From a virus: a stretch of DNA of 29,332 nt. The position numbers and the translations under genes are program-made. The DNA lies in the IMG/VR virus record IMGVR_UViG_3300048552_000056, positions 1-29,332 of that record. One strand, 5' to 3'. Shown here piece after piece: positions 5,121 through 25,372 of the stretch; within the stretch, counting starts at the first letter, position 1; each line of letters opens with the position of its first letter. Below the pieces are notes generated by a model. The model did not search any database, was not told where the DNA came from, and saw only the letters and a program-made list of their open reading frames with translations.

Positions 5121-6138
5121 GAAACTCTACGCCAGTCTCAACATCGACGAAGCAATGGCTGAAACCTTCGGGGCTTTCTGCCTTCGGGTTAATCACCTGT
5201 AGGATAGCCTGCCCATAGTTCTGTTCGTCATAGCCACGGACTAGAGCATAAGTATCGCTAGACTTATAACCCCTAGCCCGAGCCAGCCAAGATACATGTC
5301 CTTCATCTACCTGCTCCATCTGTGCTAGTTCCCAGTTGTGCTTGTGACCAGCAATGTATAGGTGAGCATTGCTCTTGAACATTGCCATCTTCTTCTGACC
5401 ATGCAACGGGTTCCATTGACTATGCCCGGGCATATCGTGAGCCGCATGAACCTTACACTCTTGGCCGTTAGGGAACTTGATAGCAACCTTAGCAGCCCAG
5501 TCCTCATTGATAGAGTGAGGCTCAGTCATCCACTTGAGTGGGTCACCAGAGCCAGTCCACATATCGTGGTTGCCACCGATAAGGATGAGGGGATTGATAG
5601 CCCTGACAAACCATTCTACCAGGCGCCACGCAGTCTCGTGACTGGTGTCCTGCTCTGCATACAAGCGCGACAGACGACCAACCCAGTTGTTCTGGTAGTC
5701 ACCTAGCCCACACCCATAGACGCCATCGTTCTCCTGGACAAGCTCAACGTGCCGACGAAGTGTAGGCCAGTCACAGAAGTTGTCATCCAGGTGGGGGTCA
5801 CCAAACCATAGCAAGCCAATAGGCTCATCAGACTTCATGCGGATACGCTGCCAAGCCTTAGCATCAATGTGCTGCTTACGCTTCTCGAAGCGGCTGGTTA
5901 GCTGCTCAACGATTGTCTCGATTGGTTCGTCGCTTGGGGGGAGGAGGGCGCGACTGTAGGTTTCAGTCTCTGCTGTCCCTTCATTCCATAACCCCTTCTC
6001 TACTGCGCGGCGGAAGCGGCCACGGAATGTAGAACGGGATACGCCGAGTGCTTCGGCTGCTGCTTTCTGTGAGCCATGTGCTTTCATCATAGCTACTGTT
6101 TGTGTGAGCAGATCATCGCTCATTGGTTTCGGTGCCAT
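5095..6138 (-). CDS. Helix-turn-helix / calcineurin-like metallophosphoesterase fusion
   Basis: In 347 residues two parts can be seen. Residues about 10-45 form a helix-turn-helix of resolvase or transposase-like type (SQKAAAEALGVSRSTFRGRF). Residues about 105-300 are a calcineurin-like phosphoesterase with all metal-binding motifs: GDPHLD (D114, H116), GLGDYQN (D147), GGNHDM (N190, H191), HAAHD (H234) and AGHKHN (H265, H267). A complete set predicts an active two-metal enzyme that hydrolyses phosphodiesters or phosphomonoesters; the helix-turn-helix suggests it is directed to DNA. AGGAGT lies before the ATG. It is the last gene of the minus-strand block and converges with the recombination block. 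Confidence 0.85.
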   Translation of the reverse strand: MAPKPMSDDLLTQTVAMMKAHGSQKAAAEALGVSRSTFRGRFRRAVEKGLWNEGTAETETYSRALLPPSDEPIETIVEQLTSRFEKRKQHIDAKAWQRIRMKSDEPIGLLWFGDPHLDDNFCDWPTLRRHVELVQENDGVYGCGLGDYQNNWVGRLSRLYAEQDTSHETAWRLVEWFVRAINPLILIGGNHDMWTGSGDPLKWMTEPHSINEDWAAKVAIKFPNGQECKVHAAHDMPGHSQWNPLHGQKKMAMFKSNAHLYIAGHKHNWELAQMEQVDEGHVSWLARARGYKSSDTYALVRGYDEQNYGQAILQVINPKAESPEGFSHCFVDVETGVEFLNFLRSKG

Positions 6139-6147
6139 TGTTAACTC

Positions 6148-6312
6148 CTAATGTAGTTCTTGTTCGGGTTCATCGGTTCCATGTATGACCGAGAAGATAT
6201 CATCAGCTACTTCTTCTGCTGCATCCATATCGGCACAGCCAGTTACGCGCATAACGATTACTGGTTCGCCATTCTCTTCTATAATAAACATAGAGAAATC
6301 ATACTCATTCAT
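6148..6312 (-). CDS. Small acidic protein (54 aa)
   Basis: The ATG at 6310-6312 overlaps the M15 peptidase stop (ATGA), and the frame ends in TAG 6148-6150, nine bases before the phosphoesterase start. The protein begins MNEYDFSMFIIEENGEP, with a likely beta-hairpin (PVIVMRVTGC), an acidic helix (DAAEEVADDIF) and a charged end. It is too short for most ORF callers but is flanked by perfect coupling on both sides. Function unknown. Confidence 0.65.
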   Translation of the reverse strand: MNEYDFSMFIIEENGEPVIVMRVTGCADMDAAEEVADDIFSVIHGTDEPEQELH

Positions 6313-6893
6313 TTACTCAGTCCTTTCGAGTAGTGCTTACCATCGAAAGTTAGCGCCTGTTTGCGGTTCTGTCCAGTGATGTAGGACACATGTATCCACC
6401 CACTGTTAGGCTTACCAGGCGTGTAGTGTTCTAGGATTAGCTGGTCATACTCTAGGTTGGCCTCGATCCAGCGAGCAACTTGGTAGTTGTCACTGCCAAC
6501 AACCTCAAAGTCTACTGCCTCCCCCTTGCAATGCTGACTCGTGTGACTGCTGCCAATCTCCTCACAGAGAAAGGGGCTGCGGTATCCGCTAGAGATTATC
6601 ACAGGTGTCTTGAAGTGGTCACGCATAGGCTCGAGGACGTTGTTGCACAGCGCTCTGAGGGAGGTGACGTGTTCTGGTGTGGGGTTGTTGTCTATTCCCA
6701 GGCGCATAGCTGTCTGGCTTTTGATCATCTCCTGCAAAGTAAAGTTTGCACTAACTCTGCCGAATGGTAACGGAGCTTTAGGCTCCGCCTTTACAGGAGT
6801 ATCTACTTTTTTCCGCGCATCCCCATCAGTTTGTCGGCACCCTTCACCCCAAAGGATGCTGTTACCGCCACGAATAAGAGGTATTGATACCAA
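6309..6893 (-). CDS. Peptidase M15 endolysin (probably expressed by frameshift)
   Basis: The frame contains the M15 (D-Ala-D-Ala carboxypeptidase/endopeptidase) zinc site: SGYRSP (102-107), SQHCKGEAVD (119-128: zinc ligands H121 and D128) and WIHVS (H168). It would cut peptide cross-links of peptidoglycan during lysis. The start is a problem. The only in-frame start before the domain is TTG at 6893, without a ribosome binding site and 91 bases inside the holin gene; the first ATG (M56) lies past the conserved opening ANFTLQEM. A -1 slip at 6806-6812 would instead fuse residues 30-194 to the holin through a Pro/Ala linker (PVKAEPKAPLP). Domain call is sure; start is not. Confidence 0.85.
   Translation of the reverse strand: MVSIPLIRGGNSILWGEGCRQTDGDARKKVDTPVKAEPKAPLPFGRVSANFTLQEMIKSQTAMRLGIDNNPTPEHVTSLRALCNNVLEPMRDHFKTPVIISSGYRSPFLCEEIGSSHTSQHCKGEAVDFEVVGSDNYQVARWIEANLEYDQLILEHYTPGKPNSGWIHVSYITGQNRKQALTFDGKHYSKGLSK
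6767..6812 (-). promoter_or_regulatory. Candidate -1 ribosomal frameshift signal (holin to endolysin)
   Basis: Read on the minus strand: the last holin codons are GGA AAA AAG TAG, so the heptamer A_AAA_AAG (6806-6812) is in the correct phase, with the stop codon directly after it. A GGGG stretch a few bases upstream resembles the Shine-Dalgarno-like stimulator of dnaX. Downstream, GTAA (6794-6791) pairs with TTAC (6770-6767), and CGGAGC (6787-6782) with GCTCCG (6776-6771), giving a ten-pair stem with a three-base bulge and loop CTAAA. The spacer to the outer stem is 11 bases, a little longer than usual. Slipping back one base enters the M15 frame at GTA GAT ACT. Confidence 0.5.
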
Positions 6894-7192
6894 CTCGGGA
6901 GTGTATCCAAGACCGCGAACCCCTCCCGCACGTGTTGAGTCAGCGATGGCACAAAAACTAGGATAGACGGGACGAGCAACACCACGAGAGCGAACTCATC
7001 TTTCCACGAGTTCTTCGTTGCGTCAGCCATGTTGGCTTCCCAGTCAACTTCACCTGTCGCAATACGTTTCTGAACTTCTGCATCAGCCTTGGCCTTTTCT
7101 ACTTTGACTGCCGACTTAGCTTTGCTTTCCTCGACCTTACCGTTTACCCAGTTACCAGCGATGCCAGTGACCGCACTTAATATGTTAATCAT
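6803..7192 (-). CDS. Holin of the three-helix (GTA-type) family
   Basis: The 129-aa protein has an N-terminal amphipathic/hydrophobic stretch (INILSAVTGIAGNWV), a long charged Ala/Lys/Glu helix, the block NSWKDEF, and two membrane segments at about 68-87 (ALVVLLVPSILVFVPSL) and 104-118 (YQYLLFVAVTASFGV), ending MGMRGKK. Layout and the SWKDEF block fit the holin family linked to gene transfer agent release. It lies directly before the endolysin gene and would open the inner membrane at lysis. The ATG overlaps the preceding stop by four bases. Its last codons form the slippery site described separately. Confidence 0.78.
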   Translation of the reverse strand: MINILSAVTGIAGNWVNGKVEESKAKSAVKVEKAKADAEVQKRIATGEVDWEANMADATKNSWKDEFALVVLLVPSILVFVPSLTQHVREGFAVLDTLPSWYQYLLFVAVTASFGVKGADKLMGMRGKK

Positions 7193-7401
7193 TTCTCTTT
7201 CCTTTCGTTTAATAGTCTATCCATGTGATGGTTCCACAGTTCGAATAAACTAGTCAACTTGTCTTCAGCGTTTTCCATGCGTGTGTCAAGCTTATCATTC
7301 TTTGCTTCCAACACTGATATGCTGCGGCTGATCCACCAAGCCATAGCTAATGCCAGCGTAATGACAGGCCACCACTGTAGTAAAGTCTCGCCGAAGTTCA
7401 T
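7189..7401 (-). CDS. Single-span membrane protein with coiled coil, spanin- or holin-like (70 aa)
   Basis: The ATG at 7401 is chosen over the upstream in-frame start because AAGGAA lies at proper distance before it. The protein has one membrane segment (about residues 9-24, WPVITLALAMAWWI), then a charged heptad-like helix (SVLEAKNDKLDTRMENAEDKL) and a basic tail. This resembles an inner-membrane spanin subunit, anchored at the N-terminus with a periplasmic coiled coil. No outer-membrane lipoprotein partner is seen nested or next to it, so it could equally be a holin accessory protein. Confidence 0.65.
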   Translation of the reverse strand: MNFGETLLQWWPVITLALAMAWWISRSISVLEAKNDKLDTRMENAEDKLTSLFELWNHHMDRLLNERKEK

Positions 7402-7402
7402 G

Positions 7403-7561
7403 TTACTGTTCCTTGTATGCTTTCCATACACGCCAGATCAAAAGACCCAGGCCAATCATGGCACCAATAAACTGCATCCAAACAGTTGCCCCAGACATCC
7501 AAACAGGTGCAGTAATTACACCCCCTGCTACGACCATATCAGTGACAGCTTTGCTTTCCAT
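7403..7561 (-). CDS. Small membrane protein, holin-like (52 aa)
   Basis: The frame starts MESKAVTDMVVAGGVI with its ATG overlapping the upstream stop (TAATG) and ends one base before the next gene. It has a Gly/Val-rich hydrophobic stretch (MVVAGGVITAPVWM), a second stronger one (FIGAMIGLGLLIWRVW) and a charged end (KAYKEQ). Size and layout match small phage holins with one or two spans. With the next two genes it gives three consecutive membrane proteins before the endolysin. Confidence 0.7.
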   Translation of the reverse strand: MESKAVTDMVVAGGVITAPVWMSGATVWMQFIGAMIGLGLLIWRVWKAYKEQ

Positions 7562-7740
7562 TAGTCCGCATCCTGGATGGTTAGAGTTCCAGCATTAACT
7601 TGCCGCATAATTTCGTCGTAGTGGCGGTTGCCAGTTTGCATTGGAACGCCCCACTCAACGCCATCAATGGTCGCAAAGATAGAGTAATTGTTACCATCAA
7701 GGTCTTCTATATACTGTGCTGATGTAATATTCATTTCCAT
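7561..7740 (-). CDS. Small protein linking fibre and lysis genes (59 aa)
   Basis: Starts MEMNITSAQYIED (ATG at 7740, or the second ATG at 7734; GGAG of the fibre 3' end serves as ribosome binding site) and ends in TAA 7561-7563. It has beta-like IFATIDGVEWGVPM followed by a helix (HYDEIMRQVNAGTLTI). I recall similar short proteins next to tail fibre genes in marine phages, but no function is established. Short overlaps on both sides show it belongs to the same transcript. Confidence 0.65.
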   Translation of the reverse strand: MEMNITSAQYIEDLDGNNYSIFATIDGVEWGVPMQTGNRHYDEIMRQVNAGTLTIQDAD

Positions 7741-7741
7741 T

Positions 7742-8833
7742 TTACAACTCCGCCTCTAATTTGTATCCGCCAGTTGAACTTGCAGGTGTTACATTCCTGT
7801 AAACATTTGCAGTGCCGCCAGTAACAGCAGTGTCGATAGAAAGCTGGTTGCTTTCTTCGTCGAGTGTATAAACAGACCAAGAATTGACTGTTCCATCAGC
7901 ACCAAGACCAGGTGTGCGCAAAGATACAGTGCCAATCTTTGTTATACTGGGGGTAGCTCGCATTGCAACAGGAGTGGTTAACCCCCAAAAGCCCCTAGTG
8001 CTTGTAAACATACCAATTACATGAAGTCCGTGAGCATCAGCAGTTGTTGTGTTTAACCATTGATAATAATACCGCTGACACAAAGCCAACTCTTCACCAT
8101 AGCTGCGATGCTCAAACTCTGTATCTACTGAGCCGACTTCGAGTTGAACGCCTGTGAGGAGCCAGTTGTTGCTGGTGTTGTCTGCAAAGTTTACTTGCCC
8201 GACTGCGCGGTTGGCATTTGTTTGACTAGCCCAACTTGTTTCAAGCGTCCCAGAGTTGTAATTTGAGCCAGCACTTACCCACCAAGAAACAAACAAACTT
8301 AAATTTTTATCAGTGTCGAGTGCGCCACTCGTATCTCCAACAAACGTAACGCTCTTTTTCTCCCAAGTGTTCGCCGAATTAACCGTATAACTTTTCGAAA
8401 TTGTGCGAGTGTTATCTGTGTCTTTTATCTCAACAATATAAGTCCCAGTCTTTCCCGACTTTACCCAGAAAGACAATGTCATCGGCAAGGCATCAGACGT
8501 TCCTTTTTTGATGTGCTGAAAGTCTTGCCCTTCAAACCTTTGGCTTAGGTTGATTTCGTGGTCTGCCGCTAGGGATGTGTCTGCCGTTGTGCAATCCAGT
8601 TTATAACTGTAGGCAAAACCATCAGGCGCGTCTGCCGCTTGGCTTAAATCAAAAACAGCTTGCGAGATATTGTTGAAAATATATCTGTCAGGCGCGTCGA
8701 AATAACCAGCATTGTATCCAACGCCTATTTGGCTAGTCCCACGCTGCGCCACGTTCATAGCACCATTGATAATCAGGTTCTTGCGGCCTGTAGGCTGATT
8801 AGGCTTTTGTGCCAGTTCTCTTGCTTTAGACAT
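7742..8833 (-). CDS. Fibre-associated / receptor-binding protein
   Basis: The 363-aa protein follows the main tail fibre with a one-base overlap. It opens with RKNLIINGAMNVAQRGTS, a motif common at the start of phage fibre C-terminal modules, and has PDRY near 48. A beta-sandwich-like region (about 120-240: MTLSFWVKSGKTGTYIVEI, WLLTGVQLEVGSVDTEF) resembles carbohydrate-binding modules. The block ends with EELALCQRYYYQW and is followed by a beta-rich tip. It most likely forms or decorates the distal fibre and contacts host glycans. Receptor specificity cannot be read from the sequence. Confidence 0.75.
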   Translation of the reverse strand: MSKARELAQKPNQPTGRKNLIINGAMNVAQRGTSQIGVGYNAGYFDAPDRYIFNNISQAVFDLSQAADAPDGFAYSYKLDCTTADTSLAADHEINLSQRFEGQDFQHIKKGTSDALPMTLSFWVKSGKTGTYIVEIKDTDNTRTISKSYTVNSANTWEKKSVTFVGDTSGALDTDKNLSLFVSWWVSAGSNYNSGTLETSWASQTNANRAVGQVNFADNTSNNWLLTGVQLEVGSVDTEFEHRSYGEELALCQRYYYQWLNTTTADAHGLHVIGMFTSTRGFWGLTTPVAMRATPSITKIGTVSLRTPGLGADGTVNSWSVYTLDEESNQLSIDTAVTGGTANVYRNVTPASSTGGYKLEAEL

Positions 8834-17534: not shown

Positions 17535-17987
17535 CTATGTCCGTTCAGGAATGAAAGCAGATGCTTTATATGCTGTATCAAATAATGTGTTTCGTGCCTG
17601 GGCGCGGTAAGACTTGCGAGCCTGAACACCCCTACGCTCAATAGCTTTAGCTTCTTTTTCAAGAGCAGCCTTTTCACGAGCCTCTTGGAGACGAAGGCGA
17701 TCAACGCTTTTGCCATATAATTGTTGCTCACGTTTTTTCAGGGCAGCAGAACTGCGTCCAACTCTACCACCAGCAGCAACAGCAGCCGCGTTGTAAGCTA
17801 CCATCTCTGCAAACTGTGCCTGTTGATCTTCGTGCGCTTGCGTGGCTAGCAGGGCTACGTCTTGTTTTTGTAGGCGAACCTCCGCAGCTTGTGCGCGAGC
17901 TTCTCTAAGAGCCGCTTGAGCCGCTTGCTTCTTTGCACTAGCTGACATAAAGCCACCTGCTACTGCGAATGCTACTTGCCAAACCAT
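17535..17987 (-). CDS. Internal virion protein B, gp14-like (150 aa)
   Basis: A hydrophobic N-terminus (WQVAFAVAGGFMSASA) is followed by a long, uninterrupted, charged helix rich in Ala, Gln, Arg and Lys (residues 18-140). This is the classic layout of the small internal virion protein of T7-like phages, which inserts in the outer membrane when DNA is ejected. The ATG overlaps the tail tubular B stop by one base (TAATG). It is followed after eight bases by the gp15-like gene. Confidence 0.78.
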   Translation of the reverse strand: MVWQVAFAVAGGFMSASAKKQAAQAALREARAQAAEVRLQKQDVALLATQAHEDQQAQFAEMVAYNAAAVAAGGRVGRSSAALKKREQQLYGKSVDRLRLQEAREKAALEKEAKAIERRGVQARKSYRAQARNTLFDTAYKASAFIPERT

Positions 17988-20272
17988 TAGAATGATACCT
18001 CTACTACCATGCCGTTCAACTGTAATCCAAATGGAACGGACTGTGTGATCTCAACTACTGGATCACGACTTAAACCAATCAAACGAAACTCCTTCTTCCC
18101 CGTAAAGTTAGCACGGTCTAGGGAGAAGTCATCATTTACATTACGCAACACCATGTTCTTATTATTAACAGCTACAGACAAAGTGTCCAGCAAATCCAGT
18201 GTCACCATATCAATCTTGCGTGGACGCCCTGTGAGGGAGTCGCCGCCAATAAGGATGTCGATGGGGAGGGTTTTTAGGATAGGATTAAACTGATAGCCTA
18301 CATAGGCAGCAGTTACCGAGTCCTTAACAGCAGATACATCTACCTCACCAGTAGTGACATCACCTACAGTATACTCACCGAGGTAGTCAGTGCCGCTCAA
18401 TAGCTTAACCTCGGCATTATCTAAATACTGATCGCTAACATCAAACACGCCAGCCACACCATCTGTGCGATACTGGCAAAAGTCCATGGGCATATCGTCC
18501 TTGAACTCTTCTAGGTAGTAGCGGTTGGTTCCGTCACCCTTGTCTCGGACAACAACAGTAAACAACTGGCGGTCTACAACGCAAATGCTGTGGAACTCGC
18601 CTGGAGTATCCCACTTCATCCAACCTGCTTTCTGATCTCCACGAGAAGAATAGAAAACAGACAAGCTTCCCTCTGGATTTACCAGGAACATATAGGATTC
18701 AGACCTGTCAAAGCCACCCTTAATAGATGCTGATTGTAAGGGCGACTGCATAAGGTGCGAGGCGGTCTGGCTTACGTTCTGTGTGTTGTAAGCTTGCTCT
18801 ACCTCGCTATACACAAACGAACCTAGCATTTCACCAGAGGCTTGCGTATAGAGCGTAGCGCCATCAAAGGGTTGTGGTCGTGCAAACGAGCAACCGAATG
18901 GCGTCTGACGTTTAATCAAAGCTGTTGCAGGAGTGATAGGTGCTGATGTAACAGCAGGAATGTATGCTTCACTACTAGCGGAAAAGACTTGGAGGTCGCG
19001 ATTAGATACCAAATGCCTAATTTGAGAAAACTCACCAAAGCTAGAAGCAATATCAATGGCATCGTTAGCAGCCCCTCCACCGATAGAGAAGTTAAAGAAC
19101 TCATTAGACTTGGACGCCCAGATGTGGTCTGGCTGTCCTGTTGTGCCAGCAAACCAAAGGCGTCCCTCAAAGAAGGTTACTGCGCCAGGATACCCACGGA
19201 TATCAGAGTAAGACTGCTCATACCACTCAGTAGTGGGGGCTACAGTAGCCACACGCACACTACCACCGCCGATAGCAGAGCTATTAGCATTGTGGGTGCA
19301 GTCGTATTCAAATGTGTTTTCATCTATAATTTCAGATACAGTGAATGAACCTTCTATCTGCGTTTGAGTGATACCTCCCAAAGCACCAAGCCTAGAAATA
19401 GTAACACTGTCACCAGCCTTAAGATTATGTAAAGCCATAGTAATGCGAACAAAACTAACGCCAGAGAAAACCTCTGCACTATCAGGAGCAAGCTCTCTAT
19501 AAATACCGCCATCTGGAATAGTTACTCTTACTGTTGTGCTACTTGTATAATTAGTAATAAGAACTGGGACACTTCCTAGTAAAAGCCATTTACCAACATG
19601 ATCCGTTGTAAAGTATGGGTAAGTAGTTCCGTCCGATATTTTCTTTGCAACTAAATTGCGCAACGTTCCCTCAGTAAAAGAACTAGGTGTAAGTGCAATG
19701 CCCTGCGGTTGGAAATCAAAGTAGGGCTGTTTAGGAGCTTGCAATACAAAAGCGTCAGTGTCCGCACCGAGTTGCAATTCCTCAAACGCAAAGTCTTCGG
19801 TAGTAAAGGTATCTACTGCTGTGCGCCGAATAATCTTAGGCGGGAAGGATGTGTGGCAAATAAAGGTAACATCGCCAGAGGAGGCGAAGGTAATCTCTGA
19901 TAGCTTTTCTGTAGTCCAAGGGCAGTTGCCAGAGCCGCTCAGAGACATAGTGTAAGACACGCTGTTGTCAGAGGTATCAATAGTAAAGATGTCTAGCTTT
20001 TGATTGCTAAACGCAAAGATGTAACGCTCAGTATCCGAGAAGATAAACGGCTCAATACGGATTTCCATTGGATTGGAAGGAATGCGTATATTAGAAAACT
20101 CGTAAATAAACTCAGTGCCAGGGCGCTTCTTAACACCACCCTCACCCAAGATAAGGAAGTTGCGAACCTTCTGTGCGCCAGCCTGATACAACTGTGTGTC
20201 TACACGGGACGTAAAGGAGGGGCTTAGCTCGCCAAACTGAAAGCTGTTGAAGGGAACTTTAACCTTAGCCAT
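17987..20272 (-). CDS. Tail tubular protein B (nozzle)
   Basis: The 761-aa protein begins with the characteristic opening of podovirus nozzle proteins (FNSFQFGELSPSF, then QLYQAGAQKVRNFLI and EGGVKKRPGTEFI). It continues as a long beta-rich protein with GAVTFFEGRLWFAGT near the middle and DQKAGWMKWDTPG toward the end, both typical of the gp12 family. It forms the hexameric distal tail tube below the gatekeeper ring and holds the fibres. The start overlaps the tail tubular A stop by one base. Confidence 0.9.
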   Translation of the reverse strand: MAKVKVPFNSFQFGELSPSFTSRVDTQLYQAGAQKVRNFLILGEGGVKKRPGTEFIYEFSNIRIPSNPMEIRIEPFIFSDTERYIFAFSNQKLDIFTIDTSDNSVSYTMSLSGSGNCPWTTEKLSEITFASSGDVTFICHTSFPPKIIRRTAVDTFTTEDFAFEELQLGADTDAFVLQAPKQPYFDFQPQGIALTPSSFTEGTLRNLVAKKISDGTTYPYFTTDHVGKWLLLGSVPVLITNYTSSTTVRVTIPDGGIYRELAPDSAEVFSGVSFVRITMALHNLKAGDSVTISRLGALGGITQTQIEGSFTVSEIIDENTFEYDCTHNANSSAIGGGSVRVATVAPTTEWYEQSYSDIRGYPGAVTFFEGRLWFAGTTGQPDHIWASKSNEFFNFSIGGGAANDAIDIASSFGEFSQIRHLVSNRDLQVFSASSEAYIPAVTSAPITPATALIKRQTPFGCSFARPQPFDGATLYTQASGEMLGSFVYSEVEQAYNTQNVSQTASHLMQSPLQSASIKGGFDRSESYMFLVNPEGSLSVFYSSRGDQKAGWMKWDTPGEFHSICVVDRQLFTVVVRDKGDGTNRYYLEEFKDDMPMDFCQYRTDGVAGVFDVSDQYLDNAEVKLLSGTDYLGEYTVGDVTTGEVDVSAVKDSVTAAYVGYQFNPILKTLPIDILIGGDSLTGRPRKIDMVTLDLLDTLSVAVNNKNMVLRNVNDDFSLDRANFTGKKEFRLIGLSRDPVVEITQSVPFGLQLNGMVVEVSF

Positions 20273-22909: not shown

Positions 22910-24436
22910 TTATACCACACCGCCGCCTTGCTGTTGAGCAGCCATTTGTTGCATCATTTCTTGCATCTGTTTTCTCTCCGCCTCATCTCGAATCAAAGTA
23001 TCGGGAACACCGAACTTCTTACCAAGATAGATTGCAGCTTCCTCTGTGTCTACAAGTAAGTTGACCATCTCTGGGCCGAAGTTACCACCGACAAGCTCTA
23101 AGAAGCGAGCAACGGACGAGATGTCTTGATTAGACTGGGCTTGTGCCAAAGGTGAAGAGCTACGAACTTTAACTTCACGGCCATTCACTGTAGGCAAATC
23201 AATACGCCCCTGCTTCTTGAGAATGTAAACTACACGCTGGAGAAGGGGTTGAACTAGCTCTGCTTGCAAGCGACCAAAGGCTGAACCAATACGACGAGAC
23301 AAGTCTGCCATACGCTCTGCAATCTCTGTGGCTGTAGCTGGTGTGCGATTTGGATCACCAAGCATATCGTTATACAGAGCGCGTTTAATGTTCAGGCGCA
23401 TGTCGTTTAGCACAAGCTGGGCAACGTCAAAGCTACCAGCAGCAGCTACAGGCTGTAGTCCGCCTGAGCCTGGGGCTTTAGGAATGACTGTGCCTGGCAC
23501 AAGGTTGATTGTATCCACGTTGATAATGCCATCGTCATCCATCTGATAGATGCCAGAGATAGCCATCTGTGCGTTCTCAAGGATTAGTTGGATAGTCAGG
23601 TTGGTTGTCTTGATAGAAGACAGTGCGTTGACTAGCGGCCCTCGCCCATAAACTTCGCCAGAAGCTTTCGACCATCGGAAACAAATGAACGGGTTACTAC
23701 CGACACCTGTGAAAATATCTTGGTAAATGAGTTCACCATGCGTTTTATCAATAGCATAGTAGCCGTAACGTTCTTGGTTTGGTTTATCATATAATCGACA
23801 AACGACTTCAAGGACTTTGCATTTTTCATCTGGTTTATTCTCCATCAGGTCTACCAACTTGGGAGACAGTTTTGCTTTAGGGTATGCAACTTTAAAGTCG
23901 CGGTGACGAATCTCGCGCTCACGATACACATGGTCAATGCGATCATCAGCACCATTTTCTAATACAATCTTAGGCAGGGGGATAGCGCTAAAGCGTAGTG
24001 GGTTAACGGCATCGCCTTCTTCCACTAGCAAGCAGCCAGTGCCTACAGCTAGATCCATAAACGACTCATGCACTTCCTGTGCAAAGTTACTGTTAGCTAT
24101 GATTTCAAAGATGTATTCTGTGACTTCATCGAGATCATTATTTACCTCATCACGCTCTTCACCAGGAATCTCACTGCCAGCAATAAGGTCTGACCAGCGA
24201 GCGAAGTTAGGCACTAGCCCAGTCTGTAAGCGCGATGCAAACTCTTGAACACCAACGACAGCAGTCTCATCAAAGATGCGGTCATCTCGGCGCTCGGCGG
24301 GGGATGTATGGAAAAAGCCCTCACGCTGTGGGAGAGCATAGTCGTAGCACTCTTGGAACAAGTCTTCGAAAGGAAGTCGAAACGACTTGGCCGTTTCATA
24401 CTTTTTCATGTAGTGCTTCGCTGTTTTATTTTCCAT
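22910..24436 (-). CDS. Head-tail connector / portal protein
   Basis: A 508-aa protein of the podovirus head-to-tail connector family (T7 gp8-like): FEDLFQECYDYALPQREGF near the N-terminus, FDETAVVGVQEFASRLQTGL, DLAVGTGCLLVEEGD, the stretch ending RWSKASGEVYGRGPLVNALS, and a Gln/Met-rich end (QMQEMMQQMAAQQQGGG). Twelve copies form the DNA entry ring. The frame extends upstream to 24466, but the ATG at 24436 (MENKTAKHY) is preferred: it overlaps the previous gene by only 11 bases and the family normally starts near this point. Confidence 0.92.
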   Translation of the reverse strand: MENKTAKHYMKKYETAKSFRLPFEDLFQECYDYALPQREGFFHTSPAERRDDRIFDETAVVGVQEFASRLQTGLVPNFARWSDLIAGSEIPGEERDEVNNDLDEVTEYIFEIIANSNFAQEVHESFMDLAVGTGCLLVEEGDAVNPLRFSAIPLPKIVLENGADDRIDHVYREREIRHRDFKVAYPKAKLSPKLVDLMENKPDEKCKVLEVVCRLYDKPNQERYGYYAIDKTHGELIYQDIFTGVGSNPFICFRWSKASGEVYGRGPLVNALSSIKTTNLTIQLILENAQMAISGIYQMDDDGIINVDTINLVPGTVIPKAPGSGGLQPVAAAGSFDVAQLVLNDMRLNIKRALYNDMLGDPNRTPATATEIAERMADLSRRIGSAFGRLQAELVQPLLQRVVYILKKQGRIDLPTVNGREVKVRSSSPLAQAQSNQDISSVARFLELVGGNFGPEMVNLLVDTEEAAIYLGKKFGVPDTLIRDEAERKQMQEMMQQMAAQQQGGGVV

Positions 24437-24902
24437 TGAAATATCCACCGTAAAATCCACTACCACCAGCAGGAGATGTTAAAAGGGCTCGACGACCAGT
24501 CTTGCGTGTTAAAGCTTTAGCTTCCGCCTGGACTAAACTCTTGCGTTTTTGTTTAACCTCTTGCAAAGCTGGTTGCTGCTCGGTATCTGTTTTAACTTTT
24601 TTACTTAGCTCGGCCGCTTGAACACCAACAGTAGAGGCTAAATCTTTTAACTTTTGTGTATAAAGAGACCCTACCATACCTGGTTGCGAAGCTTTTTTTC
24701 GAACAACCTTAGCTTCAGCCAAAGTGACCGCAGCCTGTTTTCTGTAAGCCTCGATTGTTCTAGGATCAACACCAGCTTTTTCAGCATCTTGATATACAGC
24801 TTCTGGAATAGAGTATGTGTTAGTAAAGTTTTGTTGAGCAGCTTTAGCCGCCTGCATTTCTCTTTGCCGCTTTCGCTGTAGCGCGGGTCCTGATAATCCC
24901 AT
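24426..24902 (-). CDS. Duplicated small protein, copy 2 (158 aa)
   Basis: Basic, helical protein whose last 42 residues nearly repeat those of the preceding gene: KQKRKSLV, then EAKALT, KTGRRALLTSP and AGGSGFYGGYFNGK. Upstream, AGVDPRTIEAYRKQ also matches SGVDQRTIDSYIAKQ of copy 1. It is 26 residues longer than copy 1. The ending GRRALLTSPAGGSG resembles a short Arg/Leu/Thr/Gly motif seen in small virion proteins encoded near podovirus portals. The position between large terminase and portal suggests a head or connector accessory role. Confidence 0.7.
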   Translation of the reverse strand: MGLSGPALQRKRQREMQAAKAAQQNFTNTYSIPEAVYQDAEKAGVDPRTIEAYRKQAAVTLAEAKVVRKKASQPGMVGSLYTQKLKDLASTVGVQAAELSKKVKTDTEQQPALQEVKQKRKSLVQAEAKALTRKTGRRALLTSPAGGSGFYGGYFNGK

Positions 24903-24937
24903 TACTTCACCCTGTTCCAGAAGCTTTGCTTCTTTTG
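24900..24937 (-). repeat. Relic copy of the large terminase 3' end
   Basis: This 38-base stretch is identical to 25335-25372, the end of the large terminase gene plus the following ATG, except at one base. Read in frame it still encodes QKKQSFWNRVK and stop, but it is attached to the stop of copy 1 instead of a terminase. It marks one edge of a tandem duplication with a 435-base period. Confidence 0.9.
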
Positions 24938-24938
24938 T

Positions 24939-25337
24939 TTATTTTCCATTAAAGTATCCACCATAGAATCCACTACCACCAGCAGGAGATGTTAAGAGAG
25001 CGCGACGACCAGTTTTTTTAGTTAAAGTCTTTGCCTCTAGTTCAACTAAGCTTTTACGTTTTTGTTTGATAGCTTGAAGCTCAGGTTGTTTTTTAATTTC
25101 TGTGTCTAATGCAGCCCTTGCAAGTTGTGGGATTCGTCGCTCTTCAAGACCATGAATGTGCATCGCCCTAAAGAAGCCGCTTGTCCTCATAACATCGTCT
25201 ACTTGTTTGGTTTGCTTGGCTATATAAGAATCAATAGTTCTTTGATCTACACCAGAAGCTTTAGCCTCAGCGATTTGTTCAGGGCGGATTCCCAGTCTGT
25301 ATTCTGCCCGTTCCCTACTAGTGCCACGCATTGCCAT
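24939..25337 (-). CDS. Duplicated small protein, copy 1 (132 aa)
   Basis: Starts MAMRGTSRERAEYRLGI, with the ATG overlapping the large terminase stop (TAATGG). It is basic and helical and ends with the same block as copy 2 (KTGRRALLTSP, AGGSGFYGGYFNGK). The N-terminal halves of the two copies have diverged, so the shared tail is under stronger constraint or was homogenised later. The relic of terminase sequence directly after its stop shows the pair arose by tandem duplication. Probable head or packaging accessory protein; function unproven. Confidence 0.7.
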   Translation of the reverse strand: MAMRGTSRERAEYRLGIRPEQIAEAKASGVDQRTIDSYIAKQTKQVDDVMRTSGFFRAMHIHGLEERRIPQLARAALDTEIKKQPELQAIKQKRKSLVELEAKTLTKKTGRRALLTSPAGGSGFYGGYFNGK

Positions 25338-25372
25338 TACTTCATCCTGTTCCAGAAGCTTTGCTTCTTTTG
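25335..25372 (-). repeat. Large terminase 3' end, parent copy of the repeat
   Basis: Functional partner of 24900-24937: it encodes the last residues of the large terminase (KQSFWNRMK) and the ATG of duplicated gene copy 1. The two stretches match at 37 of 38 bases. Confidence 0.9.

Follow-up and report, generated by a model that had tools for sequence, protein, structure and literature searches.

How did two small genes that end almost alike come to stand one behind the other between the terminase and portal genes of a phage, with a copy of the terminase tail between them? We analysed a stretch of 29,332 nucleotides, here called the window (G000), whose source is a marine virus of bacteria. 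Pfam and PHROG searches identified genes for portal, scaffold, major capsid, adaptor-like and nozzle-like tail proteins. The gene order on the minus strand is terL (26899-25337), gene A (25337-24939), a gap of 36 nt, gene B (24902-24426) and portal (24436-22910), with genes A and B both between terL and portal. The terL gene, whose 3' end supplied the repeated tail, encodes 520 aa (PHROG terminase large subunit, E 2.5e-17), and its stop overlaps the start of gene A as TAATG. The portal gene (508 aa from the ATG at 24436; Pfam Head-tail_con, E 1.1e-99) starts inside gene B, overlapping its stop by 11 nt. Gene A (132 aa) has an N-terminal module without a close relative, and gene B (158 aa) has one of the type that we call beta. 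Both carry the C-terminal motif [KR]xSL...GGxGF[FY], and they are the sole matches in the record to our profile A2 (E 1.3e-11 for gene A and 1.0e-11 for gene B). Their C-terminal tags of 42 residues (24942-25067 in gene A, 24429-24554 in gene B) agree at 38 residues, and thus are nearly identical, as a sequence-only reading of this DNA had noted. The same reading had described the N-terminal halves as diverged, and indeed the DNA there gives no alignment except over one stretch of 31 nt.

The gap contains an ectopic copy of the terL 3' end (24900-24937). A recount bears out the match that had been reported, 37 of 38 positions identical to 25335-25372. Two copies of this 38-mer occur in the window and none in 100 dinucleotide shuffles of it (up to three mismatches allowed). 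The repeat lengthens to 42 nt (40 of 42 identical, period 435), and a second repeat extends over 177 nt (75% identity, period 513). Both periods given in the sequence-only reading were thus recovered, but its explanation of their difference by one 78-base indel fails, as several gaps are required to align a region that has no real similarity. The copied piece also takes in the first 12 nt of the portal gene, and the seam lies between portal start and terL tail. The gap sequence begins with the portal start as expected after gene A (ATG GAA AAT AAA) and continues, joined codon to codon, with the terL tail (CAA AAG AAG CAA AGC TTC TGG AAC AGG GTG AAG TAA). Portal codons 1-4 and the terL tail thereby form, in frame, a 15-codon ORF (MENK-QKKQSFWNRVK; 24902-24949, minus strand) that starts inside the 3' end of gene A and stops on the start of gene B (TAATG). 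It translates as MENKQKKQSFWNRVK followed by a stop, so the claim that the terL tail is still encoded out of context stands. By inspection, portal start and terL tail share zero bases at the seam itself. A self-copy of the terL tail is present in the window only (35 of 36 bases) among 108 distinct terL-portal intervals, and the next-best interval for the second tail reaches 22 of 36 bases, which is the shuffle level. A 20-mer from the scar is absent from every other viral contig searched; the scar is known from one contig.

The seam and the two genes appear to differ in age. In a DNA alignment of the two units, the 3' ends of genes A and B are 80.6% identical over 129 nt. Their last 45 codons differ at 20 of 32.2 synonymous sites (62%, pS 0.62, dS 1.3) and at 9 of 102.8 non-synonymous sites, and upstream of these codons the divergence is saturated. 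One position in 38 separates the copied terL tail from its source. Under divergence in place, the probability of at most one change in 38 is 5.6e-15 at the synonymous rate of the last 45 codons and 0.0028 at the rate for all nucleotides in the 129 aligned bases, which is lower; Fisher's test of the seam (1/38) against the gene ends (25/129) gives 0.010. The seam is thus not as diverged as the neutral sites of the copies (1/38 against a pS of 0.62). The terL tail is mutable as DNA: the sister L007 (L numbers designate loci) differs from the window at two synonymous positions, and other lineages differ at more. Given a seam with one difference, genes at 62% synonymous divergence and a terL tail that is not frozen, these comparisons argue that two already different genes were joined recently, and we consider old alleles with a young seam to be highly likely. 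An older scar that had been converted by the intact terL gene could also look young. The N-terminus of gene B is nearer to other lineages (44-47% identity; 46.6% over 116 aa for L106_2) than to that of gene A. The last 26 bases had suggested that the end of gene A, but not that of gene B, resembles L007; this impression was discarded on full alignment.

The sequence-only reading had proposed checking relatives for a single-copy state, and the closest ones (L007, L093 and L094) do have a single gene. It encodes 207 aa with another, unrelated N-terminus, a third type beside those of A and B, although both the terL and the portal proteins of these relatives are 99.6-99.8% identical to those of the window. 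At the DNA level, the window and L007 are 97.2% identical over the last kb of terL and 99.7% over the first kb of portal, but the interval aligns over 262 bases only, at 81%. The dS is 0.133 for terL and 0.010 for portal, compared with 0.50-0.67 for the C-terminal end of the gene and saturation in its N-part. Low values in the flanks and high values in the interval indicate that the interval was imported. Flanks and interval also differ between L106 and L010 (98.8%, over 491 bases, and 97.3% for the flanks, 79% over 676 bases for the interval) and between L109 and L014 (97.5% and 95.9% for the flanks, 77% for the interval). The increase extends to synonymous sites, so selection on the protein is insufficient by itself and exchange with divergent relatives is needed; diversifying selection alone was ruled out on this ground as the source of interval divergence. 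In searches for close relatives of A and B, one locus (L001) was found, matching through the C-terminal part, and no parental sister with a single A or a single B.

The whole-gene alleles L109:2255-2998 and L014:5524-6270 are 77% identical between flanks of 96-97.5% identity. In the N-part of these genes dS is 0.75 and dN 0.22, compared with 0.09 and 0.003 in terL. A second fast-changing place was observed at the nozzle gene of the window (17987-20272), whose product is 92% identical to L217 (from L007) and 89% identical to L219 (from L093) despite the 99.6-99.8% identity of portal and terL; the adjoining gp14-like ORF is at 91% (L007) and 84% (L093).

The terL-portal interval is a cassette locus of one to three tandem genes, each with an exchangeable helical N-module and a short disordered C-tag. 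With identical intervals counted once, 152 loci reduce to 108 distinct ones. In the clade around the window (19 distinct intervals), one gene is present in nine, two genes in nine and three genes in one (L022). Outside the clade, 88 of 89 intervals contain one recognised gene, and none was recognised in the remaining one (Methylophilales phage MEP301). A search with the C-terminal motif returned 38 loci, partly on the same contigs, including a further three-gene array (L180). Clustering of the N-terminal parts gave the types alpha (10 genes), beta (10) and gamma (9), two groups of three and two orphans; gene A is an orphan and gene B is a beta. Clustering by the last 30 residues sets the window, L007, L184, L210, L212 and L215 apart from L010, L013, L106, L180, L186 and others. 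Alpha and beta modules are each found on both C-clusters (a four-gamete result), which requires that either segments were exchanged inside the gene or its ends were homogenised. The C-tags of array-mates are matched, with a mean C30 identity of 0.756 that is reached by 15 of 20,000 permutations within N class.

Among phages with flanks at least 91% identical we identified alpha, beta, alpha+beta, beta+gamma and alpha+beta+gamma. Single-gene states of the parental type are present in relatives: beta alone in L186, and a short delta-type alone in L015, L198 and L200. L013 and L193 have flanks 90-95% identical to those of L210, L212 and L215 but carry different C-tag types; thus, whole arrays are exchanged too. 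The same comparison ruled out a C-tag tied to the terL/portal backbone. Across 289 gene pairs (L118 omitted as a near-duplicate of L020), N and C parts follow the portal alike (r 0.55 and 0.57).

Nearly all single-copy genes outside the clade (alignment A2) start with Met-Cys and a P..P..D stretch that by eye resembles the start of T7 gp6.7. The last array genes of L020 (6050-6439), L022 (3760-4158) and L023 (5195-5599) have a hydrophobic stretch and a coiled coil at the start, which to the eye recall the window ORF 17535-17987 (gp14-like by position). In Methylophilales phage MEP301 (L003), nine annotated genes lie between terL and portal (5199-8040); one of them, of 80 aa, has GGSRALLSD near its end and is perhaps a distant family member.

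Most likely, recombination stacked two old alleles at a locus where alleles are exchanged often. Two sister genomes, one with a single-copy A and one with a single-copy B, would have undergone a crossover by which the portal start following A became joined, in frame, to the terL tail preceding B; the 15-codon ORF would then act as a relay that couples translation of A to that of B. If the alleles are old and the seam is young, joining in one step is rather likely. For the whole explanation, namely recombination between co-infecting sisters that joined two pre-existing alleles, together with a virion role of the products like that of T7 gp7.3 (see below), we estimate a probability of about 0.58.

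The sequence-only reading had instead proposed tandem duplication followed by divergence. Its tandem of homologous genes with variable N-terminus and constant C-terminus is real, but its account of divergence in place conflicts with one difference in the seam against 20 of 32.2 synonymous sites in the genes. Duplication within one genome of a unit made of terL tail, gene and portal start would leave exactly the scar structure observed, and the identity of the gene 3' ends also speaks for it. In addition to the youth of the scar, however, the N-module of gene B is present at 44-47% in other lineages and the N-parts of A and B cannot be aligned as DNA, and we regard this history as unlikely. A duplication after which the body of one copy was replaced by homologous recombination with a co-infecting relative, anchored in the terL tail and the coding end of the C-tag, would account for both the young scar and the old divergence, and exchange of intervals is demonstrated. 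It takes two events where one suffices and its intermediate was not found; we consider it doubtful, though less so than divergence in place, and recombination between genomes the most likely course.

The window could also be the remnant of an ancestral alpha-beta-gamma array thinned by deletions between the repeated C-tag ends, since this order is kept wherever the modules co-occur and all three are present in L180. Such thinning is likely for the lineage of L010, L106 and L180. For the window it is very improbable: in the other multi-gene arrays the genes are -1 to 21 nt apart with no terL tail between them, and deletions do not produce the junction of portal and terL that the scar requires. 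An assembly chimera of two strains is just as improbable. The scar occurs in a single contig and the window is a virus record of 29332 bases, but portal start and terL tail have no bases in common at the seam that could have led to a misjoin, and the seam is in frame with both native start/stop overlaps restored.

What the products do was approached through structure and profile searches. An AlphaFold2 model of gene B (15 sequences; pLDDT 78.9, pTM 0.51) has four helices (residues 5-30, 34-42, 47-71 and 76-139). Confidence is low at the C-terminus (pLDDT below 50 at 138-149 and 156-158), and the last ~20 residues are predicted to be disordered. The model fits a helical body with a flexible tag. 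No match to it was found with Foldseek in the PDB and BFVD at E of 0.001 or below, and Pfam, NCBIfam and PHROG searches with the two genes and other modules gave no informative match. A PDB profile search with A2 returned an unrelated best hit (E 0.8), and tblastn of gene B against phage records gave no match. Weak small-terminase matches (phrog_4044) were seen for 24426-24902 and L010:6150-6587 (E 0.021 and 0.014), and an A-x-x-AGVDPRTIE stretch in both looks helix-turn-helix-like by eye.

The gene for T7 gp7.3 lies just upstream of portal in the T7 record, the same position as that of the window genes. In 4 of 22 records the gp7.3 profile (phrog_1320) has the gene of the terL-portal interval as its only target (E 4.4e-7 to 5.9e-5), and the window and 17 others are unmatched; the profile also matched in 2 of 14 control genomes. 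The profile of T7 gp6.7 (phrog_1391) matched in none of the 22 records. In the reverse direction, a search of 7 records with profile A2 recovered the two genes of the window and the two of L010, and nothing in four T7-like records or in BcepC6B. An hhalign comparison of the family with the gp7.3 alignment gave a probability of 2.8% over 16 columns.

The C-tag covaries with the nozzle (tail tubular protein B, 761 aa, 17987-20272 on the minus strand; PHROG tail protein, E 6.6e-106), its proposed docking partner. Comparisons were made among genomes in which a nozzle was found, 14 and then 38; the terL row for L192, a locus without terL, was invalid, and the r with terL derived from it was excluded. 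In partial Mantel tests, which are liberal, the 14 genomes gave a partial r of 0.57 for C-tag and nozzle given portal (0 of 5000 permutations) and -0.01 for portal given nozzle. As a correlate of the C-tag, the nozzle also outperforms adaptor, capsid and scaffold. A protein that we presume to be gp14-like, from gene order and recall, adds 0.50 of its own (9 genomes). With one genome per lineage (8), the nozzle partial r is 0.23 (p 0.11). The 38 genomes gave 0.47 for the nozzle (0 of 3000 permutations) and -0.06 for portal given nozzle; after thinning to nozzle identity below 85% (28 genomes) the values are 0.40 (0 of 3000) and 0.01. Restricted to the 22 genomes outside the clade, the test favours neither the nozzle (0.23) nor the portal (0.20). 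The covariation supports docking of the C-tag on the nozzle but does not prove it.

The nozzle genes themselves show some irregularities. In L258, L262, L263, L264, L265 and L266 the frames are 859-1144 aa long and the first ~65-100 residues give a match apart from that of the rest, which looks like the insertion of a domain close to the N-terminus. In the record of L105 (L234, L236 and L240) and that of L188 (L229 and L238) the match is in two or three pieces, with stops inside one of them, by assembly error or decay.

Homology of the window genes to gp7.3 is unproven, and the link is weak because it consists of profile matches in one direction, gene position and a C-tag that covaries more with the nozzle than with the portal. 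By analogy with gp7.3, a role of the product as a minor virion protein that works in a similar way is probable, with about an even chance that this role is in the tail channel as for gp7.3. The C-tag would dock inside the tail, at the nozzle, and the N-part would fill the portal-tail channel near the DNA end and leave with the DNA at infection. The products of two genes with one and the same tag would either share their docking sites or compete for them.

The minor proteins of the tail channel in short-tailed phages have received little study and are difficult to recognise. A preprint on phage Peru-2 states that counterparts of gp6.7 and gp7.3 were not identifiable there and suggests small ORFs upstream of portal (PMC13320782). 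The gene beside the portal is here a cassette of fast turnover set between nearly identical flanks. Its copy number varies, and its N-modules can be interchanged on a tag that stays constant; we found no paper on such a terL-portal cassette locus in the open-access PMC literature. A bolder and tentative possibility, which we rate as rather improbable, is that the C-tag is a portable virion-loading signal. Any N-module acquiring it would be packed in the tail channel and delivered ahead of the DNA, and the locus would serve as a magazine of payloads, with one to three exchangeable ejected proteins per phage, swapped among sisters and stacked by recombination. If the products are in the virion, it becomes testable whether channel proteins are payloads under host selection, and whether the tag suffices to load a protein.

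One of the closest known counterparts is T7 gp7.3. A study of T7 describes six copies of its C-terminal loop (84-98) anchored to the nozzle gp12, with lysines of this loop contacting the DNA end and the N-part in the portal-tail channel, and proposes its ejection on channel opening (PMC11784390). In T7 grown on the space station, according to another report, substitutions and in-frame deletions were enriched in gp7.3 (PMC12798971). Both gp7.3 and the window genes are small, lie just upstream of portal, and have a variable N-part and a short conserved C-terminus (...GGKKSLSVARSSGGGINI in T7 gp7.3, ...GRRALLTSPAGGSGFYGGYF in the window genes). Unlike the window genes, which are longer, helical and in tandem, gp7.3 is single-copy in the seven T7-like stretches examined. 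The single 'MC...' gene (70-90 aa) of related marine phages, for example Pelagibacter phage Hodr (86 aa), has the same place and C-terminal motif as the window genes and is found by the same profile (A2), but it is single-copy in 88 of the 89 intervals outside the clade and mostly has a much shorter N-part. Tail-fibre cassettes are modular exchange loci with a constant attachment end, a swapped outer part and near-identical flanks. The window locus is like them in its constant end, its swapped part and its near-identical flanks, and unlike them in that the swapped part belongs to a small gene beside the portal, with variable copy number.
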